Assembly (NCBI RefSeq): GCF_010499245.1
Contig: NZ_JAAGOW010000001.1
Location: 3,720,001-3,784,000, forward strand
DNA: 64,000 bases
Direction: 5' to 3'
From: Variovorax sp. WS11
Lineage (GTDB): Bacteria > Pseudomonadota > Gammaproteobacteria > Burkholderiales > Burkholderiaceae_C
Both the position numbers and the translations under genes were made by a program. Under the pieces are notes generated by a model, which saw only the letters and a list, made by a program, of their open reading frames with translations, was not told where the DNA came from and did no database searches. Positions within the stretch are counted from its first letter, which is position 1. Each line of letters begins with the position of its first letter. Shown one piece after another: positions 19,994 through 30,062 of this stretch.

Positions 19994-21226
19994 CTAAATG
20001 ACCCCGCCTCGACGCAGTTCCGCCATGTCGGCTGCCTCGACGCCCGCGAGGCGCCGCAATACCTCCGTCGTGTGCTCGCCCGGCTGCGGCGCGGGCGCAT
20101 CGTATCCGCCCGGCGTTCGACTGAACTTCAGCGGGAATCCGGGGGCCAGGCCCTTTACGAAGCTTTGTGCCAACGGATTGAAGACCCGATCGACCATCCG
20201 CCGCTCCTGCAAGTGCGGCCAATCCATGACTTGATCGATTTCTCGAACCGGACTGCACGGTACCTTGCCTGCGCCCAAGGCAGCGACCACTTCGAGTGTG
20301 CTTCGCCGGCCGGTCCACTCCGCCACCACCGCATCGACCTGCTCGTTGTTCTCGAGGCGCCAAGCAAGGCGGCTGAAACCGGGATGGTCGAGGAGGTCGA
20401 GGCGATCGACGATCTTCAGCAGCGCGATCCAGTCCTCCTGCGTCGCCGCGCCGGCCACGACCCAGCCATCGAGGGTGGGATAGGCATTGAAGGGCGAGAA
20501 ACGCATGATGCGGCTTCCCTGCTGGTGATCGAGGCCCAGTTCGCGATAGCAGTCCAGCGGCTCGTCGAAAATCAGCGAGAACAGACAGTCGGCCATCGAG
20601 ACATCGACAGCCTGGCCTTCGCCCGTGCGCTCGCGGTGGAGCAGGGCTGCGACGACGCCACTGGCCGCGAACACGCCGGCAATGGTGTCCGAGATGGGGG
20701 AACCCGCCTTCATCGGCCCGGCACCCGCCTGGCCTGTGATGCTCATCATTCCGACGGCTGCCTGGATCATCGGGTCGTAGGCCTTCAGCGACCGGTCGGG
20801 CCCGGTCGAACCGTAGCCGGTCAGCGCGCAGTAGACGATCGACGGATTCGCTTCGCGCAACTTCTCGTACCCGATCTCCAACCGATCCGAAACACCGACG
20901 CTGAAGTTCTCGATGACCACGTCGGCCCGCGCCACCATCGCCAGGAAGATCTCGCGGCCACGCGGGGATTTCAGGTCCAGCGTGATCGACTGCTTCGAGC
21001 GGGCTCGCTTGAGGTAAGCCAAGCCCATATCCTGGTCGGTCCTTCTTTCAAAGGACACGCCCTGCGGGCCGGCGAACGGCGGCGCGAAGGCTGTCGGGTC
21101 GCCACCCTTGGGCTCGTCGATCTTGATGACCTCCGCGCCCATCCCGGCAAGGAGGAGCGTGGCCTGCGGTCCGGACAGAAACCGGGTGAGGTCGAGGACG
21201 ATGATCCCTTCGAGAATCTTCTTCAT
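19994..21226 (-). CDS. CaiB/BaiF (class III) CoA-transferase
   Basis: 410-aa enzyme that moves CoA between carboxylic acids. The start at 21224-21226 gives MKKILEGIIVLDLTRFLSGP. Family marks are GAEVIKIDEP, SKQSITLDLKSPRGRE, ENFSVGVSDRLEIGYEKL and the putative catalytic Asp180 in SPISDTIAGVFA, followed by ALLHRERTGEGQAVDVSM. The C-terminal linker has the VPCSPVREIDQVMDWPHLQE pattern that sets the substrate site. It is downstream of a LysR on the same strand (103-bp gap) and could be its target or independently expressed. Substrate unknown. Confidence 0.9.
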   Translation of the reverse strand: MKKILEGIIVLDLTRFLSGPQATLLLAGMGAEVIKIDEPKGGDPTAFAPPFAGPQGVSFERRTDQDMGLAYLKRARSKQSITLDLKSPRGREIFLAMVARADVVIENFSVGVSDRLEIGYEKLREANPSIVYCALTGYGSTGPDRSLKAYDPMIQAAVGMMSITGQAGAGPMKAGSPISDTIAGVFAASGVVAALLHRERTGEGQAVDVSMADCLFSLIFDEPLDCYRELGLDHQQGSRIMRFSPFNAYPTLDGWVVAGAATQEDWIALLKIVDRLDLLDHPGFSRLAWRLENNEQVDAVVAEWTGRRSTLEVVAALGAGKVPCSPVREIDQVMDWPHLQERRMVDRVFNPLAQSFVKGLAPGFPLKFSRTPGGYDAPAPQPGEHTTEVLRRLAGVEAADMAELRRGGVI

Positions 21227-21329
21227 GGAAATGCCGTAGTGCTGGCGCAGGTGTCGATGAAGCACGCAGTCTAGGAAGAAGCGTTCGCGAGCCGGTAATA
21301 GGGGATGGGCCTGCGGGTATCGCTCGAAC

Positions 21330-22310
21330 TTATGGCTCTGTCGCCTGGCCTTGCCTCGCCGGCTTGGCGCCTGTCCAGGCACCGGTGCGCATCAGTGACG
21401 CGCTCACCTCGACGATGAGGTTCCACAAGCACTCCGCAGCTGCGCTCAGCGGAACGATGTCATAGGTGCACAGGGATACCTCGCGCCAAAGCTCGCGGTC
21501 GGAGATGCGATGCGCGCTGACGCCATCGTGCCTGGTCGCCCCGAGCAGAGACGAGGCCGAGAGGATGGTCGCCCCCAGGCCGGTCGACACCACCGATTTG
21601 ATCGTCGCCAGCGAGTCGAGCTCCGCGACGACGTTCAGGGGCAGCGCGGCGTCGCGGAACAAGCGGTCGATGAACTGCCTCGTGGCATTGGCACTGCCCG
21701 GCAGCACGAAGTCGTAACCCGCCGCTTGCGCCATCGTGACCGGCCGGCCGAAGCGACGCTTTCCGGCGGTCAGCAGGAAGAGTTCCTCCTCGAGCACCGG
21801 CGTGACCCGCAGCGGACCGCTCTTGACGCGAACCGCGTCCGTGCGCGAAGGCGCGGCACGCTCGTAATCGAAGAGCAAGGCCATCTCCACGCGTCCGTTT
21901 GCCACCAGCTCTTTCAAATGACCGCTCAGAGCTTCGATCACCTGGAGGCGAACACCCGGATGGCGATCGCGCGTGGCTGCGACAAGCGGTGCGGCCAGCA
22001 CATTGGCCACGCTGGTCGGCATGCCGATGGAGACCTCGCCGGTGGGTTGACTGCCCACGTGCTGCACATCGGATTTGAGGCGCTCCATTTGGCGCAGCAT
22101 GCTTTGCGCGCGACTGTAGAAGACCTGTCCCGCTTCGGTAGGCGTGACGCCTCGCACCGAGCGCGCGAGCAGTCGAACGCCAAGCTCGCCTTCGAGGTTC
22201 GCGAGCTGCTGGCTCAGCGCGGGCTGCGCAATGTGGAGGTCGCGCGCCGCGCGCGACAAGCTGCCGAGTTCGACGATCCGAACAAAGTACCGCAGCTGGC
22301 GGATTTCCAT
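21330..22310 (-). CDS. LysR-type regulator of the adjacent glutathione/CoA-transferase operon
   Basis: 326 aa from the ATG at 22308-22310 (MEIRQLRYFVRIVELGSLSR). HTH at about 1-60 (AARDLHIAQPALSQQLANLE), in the Cbl/Nac-like subgroup that begins MEIRQLRYF. Effector domain from about 90 (GEVSIGMPTSVANVLAAPLV). It is divergent from the five-gene operon at 22488 with a 177-bp intergenic region that contains a possible LysR box at 22375-22391, so it most likely controls that operon. The C-terminus has an unusual extended tail rich in Ala, Gly and Gln. Confidence 0.9.
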   Translation of the reverse strand: MEIRQLRYFVRIVELGSLSRAARDLHIAQPALSQQLANLEGELGVRLLARSVRGVTPTEAGQVFYSRAQSMLRQMERLKSDVQHVGSQPTGEVSIGMPTSVANVLAAPLVAATRDRHPGVRLQVIEALSGHLKELVANGRVEMALLFDYERAAPSRTDAVRVKSGPLRVTPVLEEELFLLTAGKRRFGRPVTMAQAAGYDFVLPGSANATRQFIDRLFRDAALPLNVVAELDSLATIKSVVSTGLGATILSASSLLGATRHDGVSAHRISDRELWREVSLCTYDIVPLSAAAECLWNLIVEVSASLMRTGAWTGAKPARQGQATEP

Positions 22311-22374
22311 CCTGATCACCTTTGCAAGGGGAACGCTTGGGCGCTGCTGCCCAGCGACGAGGGGTAGAGGGGGC

Positions 22375-22391
22375 TATAGATCGCCCTTATA
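22375..22391. promoter_or_regulatory. Possible LysR box upstream of the glutathione operon
   Basis: TATA-N9-TATA dyad, 65 bp upstream of the LysR start and about 97 bp upstream of the operon start. Spacing is similar to the T-N11-A dyads bound by LysR proteins. Weak evidence. Confidence 0.3.
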
Positions 22392-22487
22392 CCGCAATGT
22401 TGATTCCATATTTTCGCTTATCGAGGCGTCTTCCTAGACTGCCCTCACACGAACAGATGGACGCCTTGAACGGCCGGAAACCGAACC

Positions 22488-23123
22488 ATGAACAGCAGCA
22501 AGCAAGTCGAGATGTATTGGGACGCGGGCAGCACGAATACCTACTTCGCGATCAAGTTGATCAAGCCCATCCTCGAGCGCCACGGCGCGACCCTGGTGCT
22601 TCACCCCTACAACGTCGGTTATGTCTTCCGCTCGAACAACTACGAGCTCATGAAGGAGCCGAAGGAAAAGTTGCGCTACCGCAAGGCCGACCTCATGCGC
22701 TGGGCTGCGAAGTACCGGCTGCCCTTCCAGATCCCGCGGCAGTTCCCGATCAAGTCGAGCCGCATCCTGCGCGGATCGCTTGCCATGCGCCGACAGTCGC
22801 TCGAAATCCAGTTCGTCGAGGCGGTGTTCGACGCCTATTGGGAGCGCGGCGACGCCTCTGTCACAGAGTTCGCCGGCTTGCGGCCGATCGTCGAGAGTCT
22901 GGGGGTCGAACCGGACTGGTTCGAGCACCTGGCGGCCAGTGACGAGATCGCGGCCGAGGTGGCCGCAAGCACCGACCGCGGCATCCAGCGTGGCGTGTTC
23001 GGAGTGCCCAGCATCTTCGTGGGCGATGCGATGTTCTGGGGCAAGGACCGCATGGAATTCGTCGACGAGGAACTGGAGCGCCTGGGTGCCTCGCAGCCGG
23101 TCGGCACGGAGGACCGGGCATGA
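22488..23123 (+). CDS. 2-hydroxychromene-2-carboxylate isomerase-like (DsbA-fold, GSH-dependent)
   Basis: 211-aa kappa-class GST-like protein of the DsbA/HCCA isomerase family. The active-site Ser15 lies in YWDAGSTNTYF, where true DsbA has a Cys. The helical insertion follows, then the cis-Pro loop GVFGVPSIFVGDAMFWGKDR near the end, all diagnostic. Characterised members isomerise aromatic or enol double bonds with bound glutathione in naphthalene-type catabolism. First gene of the operon divergent from the LysR; its stop overlaps the GST start by 4 bp (ATGA), so the two are coupled. Substrate here unknown. Confidence 0.9.
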   Translation: MNSSKQVEMYWDAGSTNTYFAIKLIKPILERHGATLVLHPYNVGYVFRSNNYELMKEPKEKLRYRKADLMRWAAKYRLPFQIPRQFPIKSSRILRGSLAMRRQSLEIQFVEAVFDAYWERGDASVTEFAGLRPIVESLGVEPDWFEHLAASDEIAAEVAASTDRGIQRGVFGVPSIFVGDAMFWGKDRMEFVDEELERLGASQPVGTEDRA

Positions 23124-23833
23124 TCGACCTCTACTTCTGGAGCACGCCAAACGGCTACAAGGTGTCGATTCTGCTGGAGGAGCTTGGCGTCCCGTACCGC
23201 GTGATTCCGGTGCACATCGGCAAAGGCGAACAGTTCCAGCCGGAGTTTCTTGCGATCAGCCCCAACAACAAGATCCCGGCCATCGTGGATCCGCATGGGC
23301 CCGACGGTGAGCCCATCGCACTGTTCGAATCCGGCGCAATCATGATGTACCTCGCCGAGAAAGCGGGCGCCGCGGGGGAAAGCTTTCTGCCCGCCGGCGT
23401 TCGCCAGCGCTGCGAAGTCATCCAGTGGCTCATGTTCCAGATGGGCGGCGTCGGCCCGATGCTGGGGCAAGCCCATCACTTCCGGAAGTACGCGCCCGAG
23501 ACCATTCCCTATGCAGTCGATCGCTACACGAACGAGGCCACCCGGCTTTACCGCGTGATCGACAAGCGGCTGTCCGAGGCGGCGTTCCTCGGCGGGGCGG
23601 CCTATTCGATCGCCGACATGGCCACTTATCCCTGGCTGCGCGCCTACAAGTGGCAAGGGCAGGACATCGAGGACTATCCCCACCTGAAGCGCTGGTACCT
23701 CGAAGTCCGCGGGCGGCCTGCGGTGCAGCGCGGCCTGGCCGTGCTCGAAGAGAAAGTCGACCGCTCCGGCGCCAAGCCTGACGGCGAGCGCTGGAACAAC
23801 CTGTTCGGAAGCGCGCAGTTCGACAAGCACTGA
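23120..23833 (+). CDS. yfcG: Nu-class glutathione transferase, YfcG-like disulfide-bond oxidoreductase
   Basis: 237 aa. The N-terminus MIDLYFWSTPNGYKVSILLE and the SPNNKIPAIVDPHG and LFESGAIMMYLAEK segments closely match E. coli YfcG, which binds two glutathiones and reduces disulfides or removes glutathione. The second half has GGVGPMLGQAHHFRKYAPE, also typical. Related proteins act in isoprene and styrene catabolic clusters (IsoJ/StyJ role, from memory). Coupled by ATGA overlap to the preceding isomerase and 18 bp before the CoA-transferase. Confidence 0.92.
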   Translation: MIDLYFWSTPNGYKVSILLEELGVPYRVIPVHIGKGEQFQPEFLAISPNNKIPAIVDPHGPDGEPIALFESGAIMMYLAEKAGAAGESFLPAGVRQRCEVIQWLMFQMGGVGPMLGQAHHFRKYAPETIPYAVDRYTNEATRLYRVIDKRLSEAAFLGGAAYSIADMATYPWLRAYKWQGQDIEDYPHLKRWYLEVRGRPAVQRGLAVLEEKVDRSGAKPDGERWNNLFGSAQFDKH

Positions 23834-23851
23834 CCGAAAAGGCACGACGAC

Positions 23852-25120
23852 ATGACATCACCCATGCTCAAGGGCTTCCGTGTCCTCGATCTCACGCAGA
23901 TCGTGGCGGGCCCGACCTGTACCCGGATCATGGCCGAGCTCGGTGCCGAGGTGGTCAAGCTCGAACTCGCTCCTTTCGGCGACCGGACCCGTGTGGGAGG
24001 ACTTCGCACCACCCGACCCGAGCTCAAGGGCGACACGCAGAGCACCTACTTCTTTCAGCACAACCATTCGAAGAAGAGCCTGGCGCTCGATTTCAAGAAT
24101 CCGAAAGGCCGCGCGCTGATCAAGCGCCTCGCGACCGAGTTCGACGTGCTGGTCGAGAACTTCTCGCCCGGCGTCATGCAACGCGCAGGCCTGGGCTACG
24201 AAGACCTGCGGCGGATCAACCCACGCCTTGTGATGTGCTCGATCTCGCTGGCGGGCCAGAGCGGGCCTCTGAGCCAAAAGCCGGGCTACGACTACATCGC
24301 GCAGGCCTATGCCGGAATCACCGACCTGATCGGAGCGCCGCAAGGGGATCCGGCGCTGATCACGATGGCGATCGGCGACACGTCCACGGGCCTCGCTGCG
24401 GCGATGGCGGTCGGCTTCGCACTGCTGCACCGCGAGCGCACCGGCGAGGGACAGCACGTTGAAGCCACCCTGCTGGACACCTACTTCCACATGCACGAGG
24501 TCGCGGTGCCGCGGGTGGCACTGAGGAAGAACTACACGCCCCGGCGCACCGGATCGCAGCACCCCGATGGCGGGCCGACGGGCATCTTCCGCTGCTCGGA
24601 CGGCAGCTACGTGAGCATCGCGACCCTGCCCCACCAGTGGAAGGCCTTCGTCAGCGTCCTCGGGACGCCCGAACTGCTCGCCGATCCGCGCTTCGCCACC
24701 GCTTCCCTGCGCCGCGACAACAACGAGGCGTTGAAGGACATCCTGGAGCGCTGGCTTGCGGGATTTCCATCGCGGGACGCGGCCGTCGCGAAACTGGAAG
24801 AGAACCGCATCCCGGTTGCGCCGGTGCTCACGCTGAACGAAGCCATGGCACATCCGCATCTGCGCGAACGCGGCACCGTGCGCCGCGTGCATGACCGGGC
24901 ACTCGGAACGTTTGACGTGCCGGGCATGCCGGTGAAGTTCTCCGCATGGCCGATCGCGCATGAACTGCGCGCCGATCGACTTGGCGAGCACAACGAGGCG
25001 CTGCTGCGCAAGCATCTCGGCCTCAGTGCGGAGGAGATAGCGCTCCTGCATGAAGAGGGTGTTCTGGTGCAAGACCCCATGCTCGACAGGCTCGCGTCGG
25101 CATCTGCGACCGGCGCCTGA
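23852..25120 (+). CDS. CaiB/BaiF CoA-transferase of the glutathione operon
   Basis: 422-aa class III CoA-transferase. It starts MTSPMLKGFRVLDLTQIVAG, and has GAEVVKLELAPFGDRTR, the KKSLALDFKNPKGR block, and the putative catalytic Asp176 in ITMAIGDTSTG followed by LLHRERTGEGQHVEATLLDT. Position between a GST and glutathione reductase is like IsoG/StyG, CoA-transferases proposed to activate glutathione-conjugated acids. Equivalent activity here is an inference from context. Confidence 0.92.
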   Translation: MTSPMLKGFRVLDLTQIVAGPTCTRIMAELGAEVVKLELAPFGDRTRVGGLRTTRPELKGDTQSTYFFQHNHSKKSLALDFKNPKGRALIKRLATEFDVLVENFSPGVMQRAGLGYEDLRRINPRLVMCSISLAGQSGPLSQKPGYDYIAQAYAGITDLIGAPQGDPALITMAIGDTSTGLAAAMAVGFALLHRERTGEGQHVEATLLDTYFHMHEVAVPRVALRKNYTPRRTGSQHPDGGPTGIFRCSDGSYVSIATLPHQWKAFVSVLGTPELLADPRFATASLRRDNNEALKDILERWLAGFPSRDAAVAKLEENRIPVAPVLTLNEAMAHPHLRERGTVRRVHDRALGTFDVPGMPVKFSAWPIAHELRADRLGEHNEALLRKHLGLSAEEIALLHEEGVLVQDPMLDRLASASATGA

Positions 25121-25138
25121 ACCGAGGGCTTGCACACC

Positions 25139-26539
25139 ATGACAAAGACCTCGATCCTCGATGTGGACCTGTTCGTCATCGGCGCTGGTTCCGGCGGCGT
25201 TCGCGCGGCGCGCATTGCCGCAGGCCATGGCGCTGCAGTCGCCATCGCCGAATCCGACCGCGTCGGGGGCACCTGCGTGATACGCGGATGCGTTCCGAAG
25301 AAGCTGCTGGTGGTCGCAAGCCGCTTTGCGGAGACCTTCGATGCGGCGTCCGGCTTCGGCTGGAGTCACGCCGGGCGGCACTTCGATTGGAAAACCCTGA
25401 TCGGCAACACGCAGGGCGAAGTGGCCCGGCTCGAGTCGCTGTATCGTGGAAACCTCGAGGCCTCGGGCGTGGTCCTGTGCCAGGAGCACGCTTGCCTCGT
25501 CGATGCGCACACGATCCGCCTGCGCAGCGGCCGTCTGATTCGAGCCCGGCACATTCTGGTCGCGACCGGCGCTCGAGCGGTGCGACCCGAATTTCCCGGC
25601 GCCGAGCACCTGCTGAGCTCCGATGATCTGTTCGAACTGCCGGCACTGCCACGCAGCTTCTGCGTCATGGGTGGAGGCTATATCGCTGTCGAGGTGGCCG
25701 GGCTGCTGGCGGGCCTCGGTGTCTCGACCACCCTCGTGCATCGCGGCAGTCAGCTGTTGCGCGGCTTCGATGAAGATCTGCAGCGCAGCCTGCACCAGGC
25801 GTTGGTGGAGCGCGGCATCCGGGTGGAGTTGAACGCAGTCGTTTCGCGCGTCGATGCGGCCGGCGAGGGCTTTCAGATCCGCCTTGCGGATGGCCGCAGC
25901 CTGGCCGCCGATCGGGTGCTTGCCGCCACGGGACGCAGGCCGAACACCGATGGCCTCGGGCTCGAAGCGGCCGGTGTCTCGCTCGATGGCGCGGGTGCGA
26001 TTCCAGTCGATCAGGACTCTCGCACCAGAATTCCGGGCATCTTCGCGGTCGGCGATGTCACGAACCGCGTCAACCTTACGCCGGTCGCCCTCCGCGAGGG
26101 GCAGGCAGTGGCAGAGCTGCTCTTTGGCAGCCGAACAGCGCCTGTGGACCATCGGAACGTGCCGACCGCCGTCTTCTCGACTCCCGAGATCGGCACTGTG
26201 GGGCCGTCCGAACAGCAGGCGCGCGAGCTCTATCCACGGCTGCAGGTCTATCGGTCGTCTTTCGTTCCGCTGGCCTCTGCGTTGAGCCGGCGAAAGGATC
26301 GGATGCTCATCAAGCTGCTGGTGGACGGCGACAGTGGCCGGGTCGTGGCCGCCCATCTGCTCGGCACGGATGCGGCGGAGCTGATCCAACTCATGGCGGT
26401 CGCGATCCGCGGCGGCCTCACCAAATCGGACTTCGACGCGACCGTCGCGGTGCACCCCACCGTCGCGGAGGAACTGGTCACTCTCCGAATGGCCGTTCCT
26501 GCTGCGCCGTCGATGGCTGCCGCTGCCACCGTCGACTAG
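25139..26539 (+). CDS. gor: Glutathione-disulfide reductase
   Basis: 466-aa FAD/NADPH flavoenzyme that reduces GSSG. ATG at 25139; a TTG three codons earlier is less likely. FAD site DLFVIGAGSGGVRAARIAAG; redox disulfide GGTCVIRGCVPKKLL; second dinucleotide site VMGGGYIAVEVAGLLAGLG; C-terminal dimer domain ending with the catalytic His-Glu pair in VAVHPTVAEELVTL. Fourth in the operon, 18 bp after the CoA-transferase, so GSSG or mixed-disulfide recycling is built into the pathway. Length and motifs match Gor rather than lipoamide dehydrogenase. Confidence 0.92.
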   Translation: MTKTSILDVDLFVIGAGSGGVRAARIAAGHGAAVAIAESDRVGGTCVIRGCVPKKLLVVASRFAETFDAASGFGWSHAGRHFDWKTLIGNTQGEVARLESLYRGNLEASGVVLCQEHACLVDAHTIRLRSGRLIRARHILVATGARAVRPEFPGAEHLLSSDDLFELPALPRSFCVMGGGYIAVEVAGLLAGLGVSTTLVHRGSQLLRGFDEDLQRSLHQALVERGIRVELNAVVSRVDAAGEGFQIRLADGRSLAADRVLAATGRRPNTDGLGLEAAGVSLDGAGAIPVDQDSRTRIPGIFAVGDVTNRVNLTPVALREGQAVAELLFGSRTAPVDHRNVPTAVFSTPEIGTVGPSEQQARELYPRLQVYRSSFVPLASALSRRKDRMLIKLLVDGDSGRVVAAHLLGTDAAELIQLMAVAIRGGLTKSDFDATVAVHPTVAEELVTLRMAVPAAPSMAAAATVD

Positions 26540-26581
26540 GCCCGGAATGCTCGAGGCTTCGGCAACTCCAGGAGACAAGAC

Positions 26582-27547
26582 ATGATGAAGAGATTGATCG
26601 CGACCGCCGTTCTCGGCGCCTGTGTCGTCGCAAATGCTCAGACCTATCCGAGCAAGCCGGTGATCCTCGTGGTGCCGTTCTCTCCAGGCGGCCCCACGGA
26701 TGTGGTGGCCCGCAGCCTGGCGCTGGCAATGGGGCGCACGCTCGGCCAATCGGTGATCGTCGAGAACAAGGCCAGTTCCGGCGGCATCGTCGGCAGCGAG
26801 GCCGTGCAGCGCGCCGAGCCCGACGGCTACACGCTTCTGATCCACAACATCGGCATGTCGACCTTGCCCGCGCTGTCGCGCAATCTGCGCTTCAATCCGC
26901 TCAAGGATTTCGCCTACGTCGGTGAGGTGGTCGACGTTCCCATGACCCTTGTGGGACGCAAGGATCTGAAGCCTGCAGGCTTCAAGGAACTGCAACCGTA
27001 TCTCAAGGTGCAGCAGCGCCAGGTCAACATCGCCAATGCCGGAATGGGCACCGCCTCGCATCTGTGCGGACTGCTGCTGATGAGCCGGCTCGACGTCGCG
27101 ATGACGTCGGTGTCGTACAAGGGTGCGGCTCCGGCGCTCACCGATCTGATGGGAGGCCACGTCGACCTTCTCTGCGACCAGGTGACGACCACGACGCAGC
27201 CCATTCGCGGGGGCCTCGTGAAAGCCTACGGGGCGACGACCGCTGAGCGCCTCCCGACGCTGGCAGAGGTCCCTACCTTGTCCGAGCAAGGCTTGAGCGA
27301 GTTTCGGATTGCGGTGTGGCATGGCGTGTACGCCCCCAAGGCCACGCCCAAGGAGATCGTGGACCGCTTGGCTGGAGCGCTGCGCGCCGCATTGGTTGAC
27401 AAGGGCTTCGAGGAAGCGATGGCCAGGCTCGGCGCGCTGCCGGTGTCGCCGGACCGCGCGTCGCCCGCCGGATTGCAAAAGCAACTCGCGCGCGAGATCG
27501 AGCGCTGGACGCCCATCATCCAGAGGGCGCACGTCTATCTCGACTGA
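26582..27547 (+). CDS. Bug-family (TTT) periplasmic substrate receptor
   Basis: 321 aa. Signal peptide at about 1-19 (MMKRLIATAVLGACVVANAQ). Bug pattern: YPSKPVILVVPFSPGGPTDV, VENKASSGGIVGSEAV, PDGYTLLIHNIG, and later DLMGGHVDLLCDQV. It catches a carboxylic acid in the periplasm; no TctA/TctB membrane genes are nearby, so it is an orphan receptor like most Bug proteins. Last gene of the glutathione operon, giving a hint that the substrate is an organic acid. 42 bp after gor, with AGGAG before the ATG. Confidence 0.92.
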   Translation: MMKRLIATAVLGACVVANAQTYPSKPVILVVPFSPGGPTDVVARSLALAMGRTLGQSVIVENKASSGGIVGSEAVQRAEPDGYTLLIHNIGMSTLPALSRNLRFNPLKDFAYVGEVVDVPMTLVGRKDLKPAGFKELQPYLKVQQRQVNIANAGMGTASHLCGLLLMSRLDVAMTSVSYKGAAPALTDLMGGHVDLLCDQVTTTTQPIRGGLVKAYGATTAERLPTLAEVPTLSEQGLSEFRIAVWHGVYAPKATPKEIVDRLAGALRAALVDKGFEEAMARLGALPVSPDRASPAGLQKQLAREIERWTPIIQRAHVYLD

Positions 27548-27755
27548 GGTGGTGAAAAGCCCTCGGGCGGGTCGAGTCAGGCAGCCTGCGCGGGTGTATG
27601 CTGCCCCGATTCTCGTCCTGCAGGGACGCTTCAGGCGCGGCCTCCCACGGTCTTCGGAGGCAGCGCGCAGCCTCGGAGCAAGAAGGGTGCGCCCCAAGCT
27701 GTTGACCCGCAAGGAGCTGTCGCCGGCCAAGACTGCTTCGCTCGAAGAGCGAGTG

Positions 27756-30062
27756 ATGCAGGCAGGCGCGCTGCGGTATGCGCTGGCGCCCGCGTGGGTG
27801 CTGCTCGCAGTGCTGGTGTACCTCTCGCCCGCCGGTCCGATTCTCAGTCTTGCGGGCTTGTTCATGTTTGCCGTGATCGCCGCGGCGTGGTTCGGCGGCG
27901 CCGGCCCCGGACTCGTGGCTGCAGTGCTGGCCACGTTCACGCTCCCCCAGCTGATTGCAGTGACCTATCCGTTGCTCGGCGGCTTTCTCGATCTGCCCCG
28001 CTTCATCACGTTCTCCGTCGTGGGATGGATCGTGGGGTGGGGGAGCTCCCGACGAGCCAGGGCACTGCGCGACCAGGAGCGCTACGCGCGTGCCATGGGG
28101 GCGAGCGACGATGGTTTCTGGGACTGGATCGTCGCCGACGACGCCATCTACACCTCGCCGCGCTTGCTGGAGATCTATGGCTTTGCGCCCGGCACGCGCT
28201 TCGCCGGTCGCGATGACCTTGTCGCACGGATTCCGTTTCACCCCGAGGATCGCCCGCTGTTGCTGCGGGCGTTCACGGAACACTTCGCCGGCAAGACGGT
28301 GCGCTACGACGTCGAGCCCCGAGTCATCCGGAACGGGGAGACGCGTTGGGTGCACCTGACCGGCATCGCAGCGCGCGATCCTTCCGGCGCTGTCGTTCGC
28401 TGGACCGGCACGGTGCGGGACGTGACGGAGCGCAAGCGCGCCGAAGAGGCGCTGCGCGAATCCGAGCAACGCTACGAGCTCGCAATGGCTGCGAGCGAGT
28501 CGGGATACTGGGATTGGCAAGTCCCCACCAACAAGTATGTGGTCTCGCCGAGAGCGTACGAACTGAGCGGGTATCCGCCTGGAACCAAGTGGGTGAACAG
28601 GGACGAGTACAGGGCACGCATCAACATGCACCCGGAGGATTTCACGCGATGGGAAGCTGCGCGGGAGGCGTTGTTCGCCGGAACCGGCGACCGGCTCGCC
28701 ATGGAGGTGCGCTACATCGTCCGCGGCGAGGCCCGCTGGCACAGCCTCCAGGCCATCTGCAGGCGCGACGACGCCGGCAAGGTCATCCGGTGGACCGGCT
28801 CGACCACCGACATCACGGCGCGCAAGCTGGCCGAGCAAGAGCTGAAGACAATGGAACGCAAGCTGCGCCAGGCGCAACAGCTCGAGTCGATGGGAACGCT
28901 GGCGGGCGGAATCGCGCACGACTTCAACAACATCCTCGGCGCGATCCTCGGCTACGGCGAGATGGCGCTGCGCGACGCGCCCAAGGGGAGCCGCCTCGCG
29001 CGCGACCTCGACAGCATCATGGTCGCCGGCGAGCGCGGGCGCGCGCTCGTCGAGCGCTTGCTGGCCTTCAGCCGCAGTGCGGTCGGCGAGCGTGTGCCGG
29101 TCCATGTCGAGCGGGTGGTACGCGAAGTGCTCGACCTGGTTTCGGGGAAGTTGCCGCCGAGCGTGGCCGTGCAGGCCAGGCTGCACGCGGGGCCCGCGGC
29201 GGTACTCGGCGACGCGACACAGGTGCACCAGGTGGTGGCCAATCTTGCGACCAATGCCATCCAGGCCATGCCGGCCGGCGGAACCTTGCGTATCGAGCTC
29301 GCCATCGAGCGCGTCGAGGTGCCTCGCGTCGGGACGATCGGTGCGCGCGGGCCGGGAGAGTATGTCGTGCTGACGGTCGCGGATACCGGCGCCGGCATGG
29401 CGCCGGAGATCATCGATCGCATCTTCGACCCCTTCTTCACCACCAAGGAAGTGGGCACCGGTACTGGCCTGGGACTGTCGCTCGTGCACGGCATCGTCAC
29501 CGAGCTCGGCGGCGCGATCGACGTCGCGAGCACGCCCGGCATCGGCAGCACGTTCATCGTCTACATGCCGCGCTCCGGGGACGCGGCGGAGCCAGACGAA
29601 GAAAAGGAACCGAGCCTGGCACGCGGCGACGGCCAGCGCGTGCTGGTCGTCGACGACGAAGAGCCGTTGATGCAGCTTGCGACCCGCATCCTGGCGGAGC
29701 TGGGCTATGTGCCCATCGGCTTCAGCTCGAGTACGGCTGCGCTCGCGGCGTTTCGTGCCGACCCCGAGCACTTCGATGCTCTCGTCACCGACGAGCGCAT
29801 GCCGGAAATGTCGGGCTCCGCGCTGATCCGCGAAGTGCGTGGCATGCGCAGCACCATGCCCGTCGTGCTGATGAGCGGCTACCTGGGAGCGACGGCGGGG
29901 AAGGCGGGTGAAAGCGCTTCGGGCGATGCGCGTGGCGTGGCGCCGGAAGGCGTCTCGGCGATCGTGGCCGACGAAGTCCTGCAGAAGCCGCTTTCGGCGC
30001 GCGACCTCGCGACCGGCCTGGCCAGGGTGTTCGCGCCCCGGGCTGGAAGGGGCGACACCTAG
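27756..30062 (+). CDS. Membrane-bound hybrid histidine kinase with two PAS domains
   Basis: 768 aa from the ATG at 27756 (GAAGAG upstream); GTG at 27687 is an alternative. Membrane segments at about 5-95 resemble DUF4118 (AAAWFGGAGPGLVAAVLATF). PAS domains at about 108-225 and 236-355 are PAS_3-like (FHPEDRPLL, MHPEDFTRW). HisKA has phospho-acceptor His388 in TLAGGIAHDFNNILGAILGY. The ATPase domain follows (FDPFFTTKEVGTGTGLGLSL). The C-terminal receiver begins RVLVVDDEEPLMQLA, with phospho-acceptor Asp679 in LVTDERMPEMSG. No separate response regulator or output gene is adjacent, so signal and target are unknown. Confidence 0.88.
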   Translation: MQAGALRYALAPAWVLLAVLVYLSPAGPILSLAGLFMFAVIAAAWFGGAGPGLVAAVLATFTLPQLIAVTYPLLGGFLDLPRFITFSVVGWIVGWGSSRRARALRDQERYARAMGASDDGFWDWIVADDAIYTSPRLLEIYGFAPGTRFAGRDDLVARIPFHPEDRPLLLRAFTEHFAGKTVRYDVEPRVIRNGETRWVHLTGIAARDPSGAVVRWTGTVRDVTERKRAEEALRESEQRYELAMAASESGYWDWQVPTNKYVVSPRAYELSGYPPGTKWVNRDEYRARINMHPEDFTRWEAAREALFAGTGDRLAMEVRYIVRGEARWHSLQAICRRDDAGKVIRWTGSTTDITARKLAEQELKTMERKLRQAQQLESMGTLAGGIAHDFNNILGAILGYGEMALRDAPKGSRLARDLDSIMVAGERGRALVERLLAFSRSAVGERVPVHVERVVREVLDLVSGKLPPSVAVQARLHAGPAAVLGDATQVHQVVANLATNAIQAMPAGGTLRIELAIERVEVPRVGTIGARGPGEYVVLTVADTGAGMAPEIIDRIFDPFFTTKEVGTGTGLGLSLVHGIVTELGGAIDVASTPGIGSTFIVYMPRSGDAAEPDEEKEPSLARGDGQRVLVVDDEEPLMQLATRILAELGYVPIGFSSSTAALAAFRADPEHFDALVTDERMPEMSGSALIREVRGMRSTMPVVLMSGYLGATAGKAGESASGDARGVAPEGVSAIVADEVLQKPLSARDLATGLARVFAPRAGRGDT

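Follow-up and report, generated by a model that had tools for sequence, protein, structure and literature searches.

Carbon pathways that combine glutathione with CoA thioesters are known mainly from epoxide chemistry (isoprene, styrene). What, then, is the role of an operon that encodes both kinds of enzyme and in which Pfam recognises no oxygenase? This question is raised by a locus of Variovorax sp. WS11 that lies in a stretch of 64,000 nucleotides (contig NZ_JAAGOW010000001.1, positions 3,720,001 to 3,784,000 of the forward strand), here called the window, in whose numbering unprefixed coordinates are given. The initial annotation had described five genes at 22488–27547, with a divergent LysR gene, as an operon that degrades an organic acid through a glutathione adduct, and our analysis partly supports it. 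The conserved unit begins at 19994 rather than at 22488, because a second class III CoA-transferase gene, CoAT2, belongs to it. We give an even chance to the view that the whole set (CoAT2, and the operon of an isomerase-like protein, a glutathione S-transferase (GST), the CoA-transferase CoAT1, a glutathione reductase (GR) and a Bug receptor) forms a LysR-controlled regulon, predicted from sequence, for the catabolism of an organic acid via CoA and glutathione.

A conserved set of genes around a divergent LysR regulator

The five genes of the plus strand encode, in order, a kappa/HCCA-isomerase-like protein of DsbA fold (22488–23123; PF01323, E 5.9e-33), a Nu-class, YfcG-like GST related to IsoJ (23120–23833; GST_N and GST_C domains, and the YfcG structure 3gx0 at E 1.9e-72), CoAT1 (23852–25120; class III, PF02515 at 378 bits), the accessory GR (25139–26539; PRK06116 at 551 bits, cut-off 480) and a Bug/TctC-type periplasmic receptor (26582–27547; PF03401). 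The LysR-type regulator is encoded divergently on the minus strand (21330–22310; PF00126 and PF03466), and CoAT2, a class III enzyme of the CaiB/BaiF, Frc type (410 aa; PF02515 at 366 bits), lies beyond it on the same strand (19994–21226, start ATG at 21226). The frames of the operon and of the LysR gene are all intact, and Pfam and NCBIfam matches bear out the protein families first assigned to these six genes, as well as the description of a catabolic-looking unit that holds both glutathione and CoA enzymes. The tight packing was correctly noted as regards the short gaps (18, 18 and 42 bp), and the overlaps reduce to a single ATGA (−4 bp, 22488–23123 with 23120–23833). No sigma-70-like promoter came out of a simple consensus scan, which gave 3 terminator-like sites (4.4 being the shuffle expectation), each of them on the minus strand; the scan therefore neither supports nor breaks the operon. 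A PAS-containing hybrid histidine kinase with a receiver domain is encoded just 3′ of the operon, within 27309–30062.

With the isomerase-like protein alone as the query, 34 loci came up among 84,980 species genomes, and in 18 of these (L039–L050, L052–L055, L057 and L061) homologues of the GST, CoAT1 and CoAT2 were found near the isomerase gene by tblastn. Together with a genome of the same genus (G348, locus L080) and the window, this gives 20 clusters, 15 of them beta-type, from Burkholderiales, and five alpha-type, from Bradyrhizobium/Hyphomicrobiales, in which the gene order and the LysR protein are different and the four enzymes are still together. As the clusters were found via the isomerase gene, its presence in all 20 is no test; the recurrence of the three partners beside it, in these 18 loci, in G348 and in the window, shows an association that exceeds chance. 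Hence, the five-gene order proposed initially is not what is conserved, since CoAT2 was overlooked and GR occurs in 6 of the 20 clusters; the suggested search for that order in other genomes did find the GST, CoAT1 and CoAT2 beside the isomerase gene, with GR mostly absent.

In the 14 other beta-type clusters, identity to the window (tblastn) is 66–78% for the isomerase, 67–84% for the GST, 69–79% for CoAT1, 59–72% for CoAT2, 57–72% for the Bug receptor and 47–63% for LysR. Pairwise distances over 14–15 clusters correlate with those of the GST at r 0.80 for CoAT1, 0.80 for CoAT2, 0.81 for LysR, 0.76 for Bug and 0.62 for the isomerase, and at 0.46 for GR over six clusters only. Some open reading frames chosen by script were wrong (for example, the GST in L039, L040, L048 and L049), and the cluster counts rest on tblastn. 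Neighbouring genes were read in part in 15 of the 20 clusters, L040, L047, L053 and L080 being left out and the window being read over 19–32 kb.

Relatives of the unit are rare among the samples searched. An isomerase of at least 55% identity was listed for one of 99 other genomes of the genus (G348, 79%), none of 298 other genomes in the family sample (best 37%), one of 398 in the order sample (query from L046, E 1e-55) and one of 397 in the phylum sample (query from L057, E 1e-55). Among 171 plasmid records, isomerase matches were all below 60% identity, with no close relative, and plasmids gave no CoAT1 match at E 1e-100.

The isomerase clade also occurs outside the clusters. In the family of genome G531, it was found in 4 of 75 genomes, and the four contexts taken from that family (L089, L094–L096) hold no cluster partner. 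In ten loci of uncultured Alphaproteobacteria (L056, L058–L060, L062 and L064–L068), none of which has CoAT1, CoAT2 or the GST, the clade gene directly follows a RidA-like gene, as named by eye, at about 9.55–10.6 kb (L056, L058–L060, L062, L064–L067) or at 0.6–1.6 kb (L068). In the marine alphaproteobacterial contexts L069–L072, where it also stands beside a RidA-like gene, no consistent partner was seen among neighbours named by eye. In L039, some 2.3 kb ahead of the detached isomerase gene, a Bug-like gene is followed by a second HCCA-isomerase/DsbA-like gene (L039:7061–7681), whose product has no NCBIfam match at 1e-10.

A predicted operator common to the unit

The divergent region between the LysR and isomerase genes aligns across the 15 beta-type clusters around one conserved block, in which an ATA-N9-TAT core (T-N11-A inside) is followed by CC and then by TATT. 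At the position that corresponds to 22429 in the window, a TA..AT element resembling a −10 box is present in at least 13 of the 15 aligned regions; at this place, the window and L080 read TAGACT. A 42-nt matrix was built from the divergent regions, the tested locus and its listed near relatives being left out each time, except that L080 was kept in when the window was tested, and the window when L080 was. All 15 beta-type clusters gave the divergent site with this matrix, which also placed the operator, with its T-N11-A dyad, ahead of the isomerase gene in the five clusters in which that gene is detached (L039–L042 and L048; scores 31.8–41.2) and ahead of CoAT2 in 14 of 15 (scores 6.7–28.8). 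In first-order shuffled sequence (five per locus), the maxima stayed below 11 in 13 of the 15 loci and reached 13.7 and 22.3 in the other two, the latter in L048.

In the window, the matrix gives 40.9 for the copy 5′ of the five-gene operon (22373–22414, plus strand) and 28.8 for the copy 5′ of CoAT2 (21295–21336, minus strand), and nothing else in the 64 kb scores above 0. Next to each copy stands the same 13-nt −10-like block, TCTTCCTAGACTG, at 22429–22441 (plus strand) and at 21267–21279 (minus strand), and on neither strand does the window contain another exact copy of it. A profile of 34 sites (R1) found two clear sites in the 8.49-Mb genome, both of them here (23.2 bits on the operon side and 27.0 bits on the CoAT2 side; next 11.6), and the two corresponding sites in the G348 genome (24.2 and 17.4 bits; next 12.9); since both site pairs were in the training set, and since 150 of 1,934 and 150 of 1,523 first-look candidates, respectively, were scored, all that can be read from these scans is that they met no other strong site. 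From the predicted operator, we infer a LysR-type co-regulation of the whole set, and the shared operator marks which genes belong together for testing.

The enzymes, a possible route and its rivals

The nearest solved sequence to the isomerase-like protein is the HCCA isomerase 2imd (E 3.9e-21). Its predicted structure (mean pLDDT 93.5) superposes on 2imd with Z 24.8 (root-mean-square deviation 2.2, 198 aligned) and on kappa-class GSTs with Z 23.0–23.5 (for 1r4w, Z 23.5, deviation 2.2, 198 aligned). Ser15 aligns with Ser11 of 2imd, which we take to be the catalytic serine of HCCA isomerase, and at this place all 36 clade members, but none of 35 other HCCA-like homologues, carry the motif GSTN. 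A CxxC motif is found in none of the 36 members. This motif pattern makes it unlikely that the protein acts as a DsbA-type thiol oxidase.

In NCBIfam, the window GST comes closest to the YfcG family, at 254.9 bits, short of the cut-off of 332, and all 20 cluster GSTs carry the motif TPN (Thr-Pro-Asn). According to the part of PMC5892560 available to us, this motif activates glutathione (GSH) in NaGSTNu, which strips glutathione from a conjugate to give glutathione disulfide (GSSG); the E. coli Nu-class GSTs are also able to cleave the conjugate, YfcG-type enzymes have disulfide reductase activity, and the physiological roles of the Nu class are described there as largely unknown. As for GR, it scores above the cut-off of PRK06116 and below those of TIGR01424 and TIGR01421, carries the redox motif CxxxxC as CVIRGC and is 47% and 43% identical to two other GR-like proteins of the same genome. 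Its gene is placed after Bug in L080, before Bug in four clusters and without Bug in L042. The mean identity of GR in the six clusters that bear it is 52%, compared to 78% for the GST, and this, with the weak distance match to the GST, makes GR look as if it was recruited more than once. A GR homologue in L057, at a distance of 8 kb from the isomerase gene, was not assigned to the cluster.

The two CoA-transferases are 34% identical to each other. In view of the two-subunit class III enzyme of the benzylsuccinate type, in which two partners form one enzyme, it may be noted that the active-site Asp is present in both (in all 19 aligned members of each, G348 being outside the alignment) and that each has its own operator copy. 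The window holds five class III CoA-transferase matches, starting at 20069, 23867, 41162, 45453 and 50615, and the whole genome holds the very large number of 56 PF02515 matches.

The transporters vary, and a hint at the substrate comes from the neighbouring genes. A Bug gene is adjacent in 17 of the 20 clusters; L052 and L055 have a TRAP system, and L042 has, in the place of Bug, an MFS gene whose nearest family is that of aromatic-acid/H+ symport, at 170 bits, well short of the cut-off of 418. A glutaryl-CoA-dehydrogenase-type gene directly follows the isomerase gene in three of the five alpha-type clusters (L052, L055 and L057), and in a Polynucleobacter metagenome-assembled genome (L050:928–4389), such a gene, a class III CoA-transferase and Bug lie beside CoAT2. 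The best match of the L050 enzyme is a Burkholderia glutaryl-CoA dehydrogenase (E 1e-212), those of L057 and L055 have glutaryl-CoA dehydrogenases as their second-best matches (E 6e-184 and 1.5e-187), and that of L052 is typed through its 78% identity to the L057 enzyme. In the genome of the window, a gcdH-type gene lies elsewhere, on contig C3 (2809990–2811174), with a match to class III CoA-transferases some 200 bp further on (2811373). The dehydrogenase genes beside the four clusters hint at a C5 dicarboxylate and are far from proving it. In Advenella kashmirensis (L044:29–4321), genes that follow CoAT2 on the same strand are possible additional members of the regulon: they encode a TRAP transporter, an alpha/beta hydrolase and a protein that looks by eye like an amidohydrolase and matches no NCBIfam family at 1e-10.

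From the families, the catalytic motifs, the conserved set and the shared operator, all of which the sequence supports, we infer a substrate and a series of chemical steps. Our best reading is that the unit may be an oxygenase-free relative of the isoprene logic that works on a ready-made organic acid. This acid would probably be a small dicarboxylate that is unsaturated or electrophilic in some other way, and it would be bound by the Bug receptor and imported, as the family suggests. One or both of the class III CoA-transferases would form its CoA thioester, and the second might shift CoA between two carboxylates or serve a later intermediate. The kappa/HCCA-isomerase-like enzyme, to judge from its family and conserved Ser, would add glutathione at the activated double bond, leading to isomerisation or to an adduct. 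The Nu-class GST could then take off the glutathionyl group by using a second GSH, which would release GSSG, as in the case of its relative in lignin ether breakdown, and GR, where present, would regenerate GSH. The acyl-CoA would finally enter general beta-oxidation, in some relatives perhaps via the neighbouring glutaryl-CoA dehydrogenase.

A more specific version, which is possible if doubtful, is an oxygen-independent route for an unsaturated C5 (glutaconate-like) dicarboxylate, in which the two CoA-transferases would be followed by isomerisation or reduction of the C=C bond by glutathione, feeding a glutaryl-CoA dehydrogenase. It would involve an addition of the kappa type and a reductive removal of the Nu-class type, with the net electrons coming from NADPH via GR. 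If true, it would be an iso-like pathway in which the oxygenase front end is swapped for the uptake of a ready-made acid.

Several observations weigh against a catabolic regulon of this kind, which is a prediction from sequence. Shared operators show co-regulation, not common chemistry, and the operator was not found in the five alpha-type clusters, which have the other regulator. The sites on the CoAT2 side are weaker, their constant position being more convincing than their score: 22.3, the top shuffled maximum over all loci, is not reached by 9 of 14; measured against the shuffles of its own locus, the site scores higher than the maximum in 13 of 14, that of L048 failing (15.3 against 22.3); and CoAT2 of L050 has no operator among the listed matrix hits (4.4 in another scoring). 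That the genome scans scored 150 candidates each counts here as well. CoAT2 of L052 is split across two frames, and the isomerase gene stands without partners in 16 of the 34 loci, some of them on short contigs, so that its clade has roles elsewhere too. Since the six clusters with GR are only the window, L080 and L039–L042, a heavy production of GSSG is not supported as a general trait. Because the transporter varies (Bug, TRAP, MFS), a single substrate is not certain. The glutaryl-CoA-dehydrogenase-type gene adjoins only four of the 20 clusters, in two classes, three of the four being closely related, and the solved protein that the L057 and L055 enzymes match best is 4w9u, an acyl-CoA dehydrogenase whose substrate is unstated.

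Among the other explanations, the one that survives best, itself unlikely, is that the glutathione enzymes guard the cell from a reactive acyl-CoA (a Michael acceptor) made by the CoA-transferases, without carrying carbon flow. Scavenging would suit the GST, the isomerase and GR, and the accessory standing of GR agrees with it. In each of the 20 clusters, however, the GST and the isomerase go with the CoA-transferases, with identities about as high or higher, and in the beta-type clusters they have the operator in common with them.

Second in standing, and improbable, is the catabolism of a disulfide or thioether acid, in which the GST would reduce an organic disulfide, GR would recycle GSSG and the CoA-transferases would activate a thiol- or sulfino-acid, on the model of Act acting on 3-sulfinopropionate. 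The disulfide reductase activity of YfcG-type enzymes fits this explanation, as do the presence of GR in six clusters and, in the part of PMC6370202 available, the existence of Act as a class III CoA-transferase in Variovorax. On the other hand, no Mdo-like dioxygenase was recognised by eye in the first 90–100 residues of the chosen frames in 15 of the 20 clusters (no library search was made), the nearby acyl-CoA dehydrogenases match glutaryl-CoA dehydrogenases of solved structure strongly and the desulfinase family far under the cut-off, and an HCCA-isomerase-like protein without CxxC would have no role. A third explanation, the handling of an aromatic ring-cleavage product as by the HCCA isomerase of naphthalene breakdown, draws on the closest solved homologue of the isomerase and on the MFS gene of L042; it is quite improbable, as the conserved set comes without a ring dioxygenase, a ring-cleavage enzyme or an aldolase, and GSTN sets the clade apart from other HCCA-like homologues.

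Comparison with known glutathione and CoA pathways

The same genome holds a separate iso-type cluster on contig C2 (541000–560900; L101), so termed from its gene content compared with the available parts of PMC9804861 and PMC10057887. It contains an IsoG-like CoA-transferase, an SDR protein (IsoH-like), two GSTs (IsoI/J-like), an AldH-like aldehyde dehydrogenase, parts of a di-iron monooxygenase, whose alpha subunit has toluene monooxygenases as its nearest PDB entries, and a GarB-like GR. This cluster may enable growth of the bacterium on isoprene or on an alkene related to it. The comparison with isoprene made at the outset proved apt: the iso cluster of Variovorax sp. WS11 consists of isoGHIJ, aldH, isoABCDEF and garB, the glutathione reductase GarB being described there in PMC9804861, and the window GST is 43% identical (242 columns, E 2e-67) to the IsoJ-like GST of L101. 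The window GR is also 43% identical to its GarB-like counterpart. CoAT1 and CoAT2, however, are each 31% identical to the IsoG-like protein, to which they are no closer than to each other as judged by identities rather than by a tree, and none of the five proteins of L101 that were compared matches the isomerase-like protein significantly. That the unit is a partial isoprene/styrene-type cluster which serves, or stems from, the iso pathway of this genome is thus very improbable, despite L101 and the IsoJ-like GST, given the distant CoA-transferases, the unit's own regulator and operator, its maintenance as a separate unit in 20 clusters and the absence of a monooxygenase by eye in the 15 clusters read.

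The lack of a monooxygenase and of an aldehyde dehydrogenase, first reported for the operon, is borne out by Pfam and NCBIfam, which show no monooxygenase and no AldH-like or IsoH-like gene among its products. This extends to all seven genes of the unit, which show no oxygenase of any kind and neither an IsoH-like dehydrogenase nor AldH, both kinds being present in L101; no genome-wide search for styrene-type flavin monooxygenases was made. The di-iron monooxygenase family PF02332 was found in the genome only at C2:547713–551037 and not on the contig of the window. No description of this gene set was recognised in searches of PMC papers, among which there are no preprints and most subscription journals are absent, and a glutathione–CoA catabolic cluster without an oxygenase would be a variant, not found described, on the known glutathione–CoA clusters. 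An oxygenase-free regulon with the same back end would suggest a wider use of glutathione on activated double bonds in acid catabolism, and it would give candidate functions to the HCCA-isomerase-like clade and to a group of Nu-class GSTs.

Other known systems share single features with the unit. The usual glutarate operon is made up of gcdH, the class III CoA-transferase gene gcdG and a LysR gene. Like the window unit, it has a class III CoA-transferase under LysR, and a gcdH-type gene lies beside 4 of the 20 clusters; the window unit differs in its glutathione enzymes, in its two other CoA-transferases and in having the gcdH-type gene elsewhere in the genome. HCCA isomerase (NahD) and kappa-class GSTs have the fold and the place of the catalytic Ser in common with the window isomerase, which differs in the GSTN motif of its clade, in its CoA-transferase partners and in that no naphthalene genes were recognised. 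In the lignin beta-aryl-ether pathway (LigF/LigE with LigG or a Nu-class GST), glutathione is put on and then removed by the Nu-class enzyme to give GSSG, according to the available part of PMC5892560; the window unit has one GST and, by Pfam, no dehydrogenase of the LigD kind (LigD, LigE and LigF were not searched by name), and it has the CoA-transferases and the Bug receptor in addition.

The iso cluster is the closest parallel in content, since it has, as the available parts of PMC9804861 and PMC10057887 describe it, an Frc-type CoA-transferase, an IsoJ-like GST, a GR and a LysR nearby. Unlike it, the window unit lacks the monooxygenase, IsoI, IsoH and AldH, lies at another genomic place and has two CoA-transferases, an uptake receptor and, in the place of IsoI, the kappa/HCCA-isomerase-like enzyme. 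In summary, as the GST and GR reach 43% identity to L101 proteins but the CoA-transferases only 31%, and the isomerase is unmatched there, the window unit is, by sequence comparison, a separate system that has back-end enzymes in common with the iso logic.

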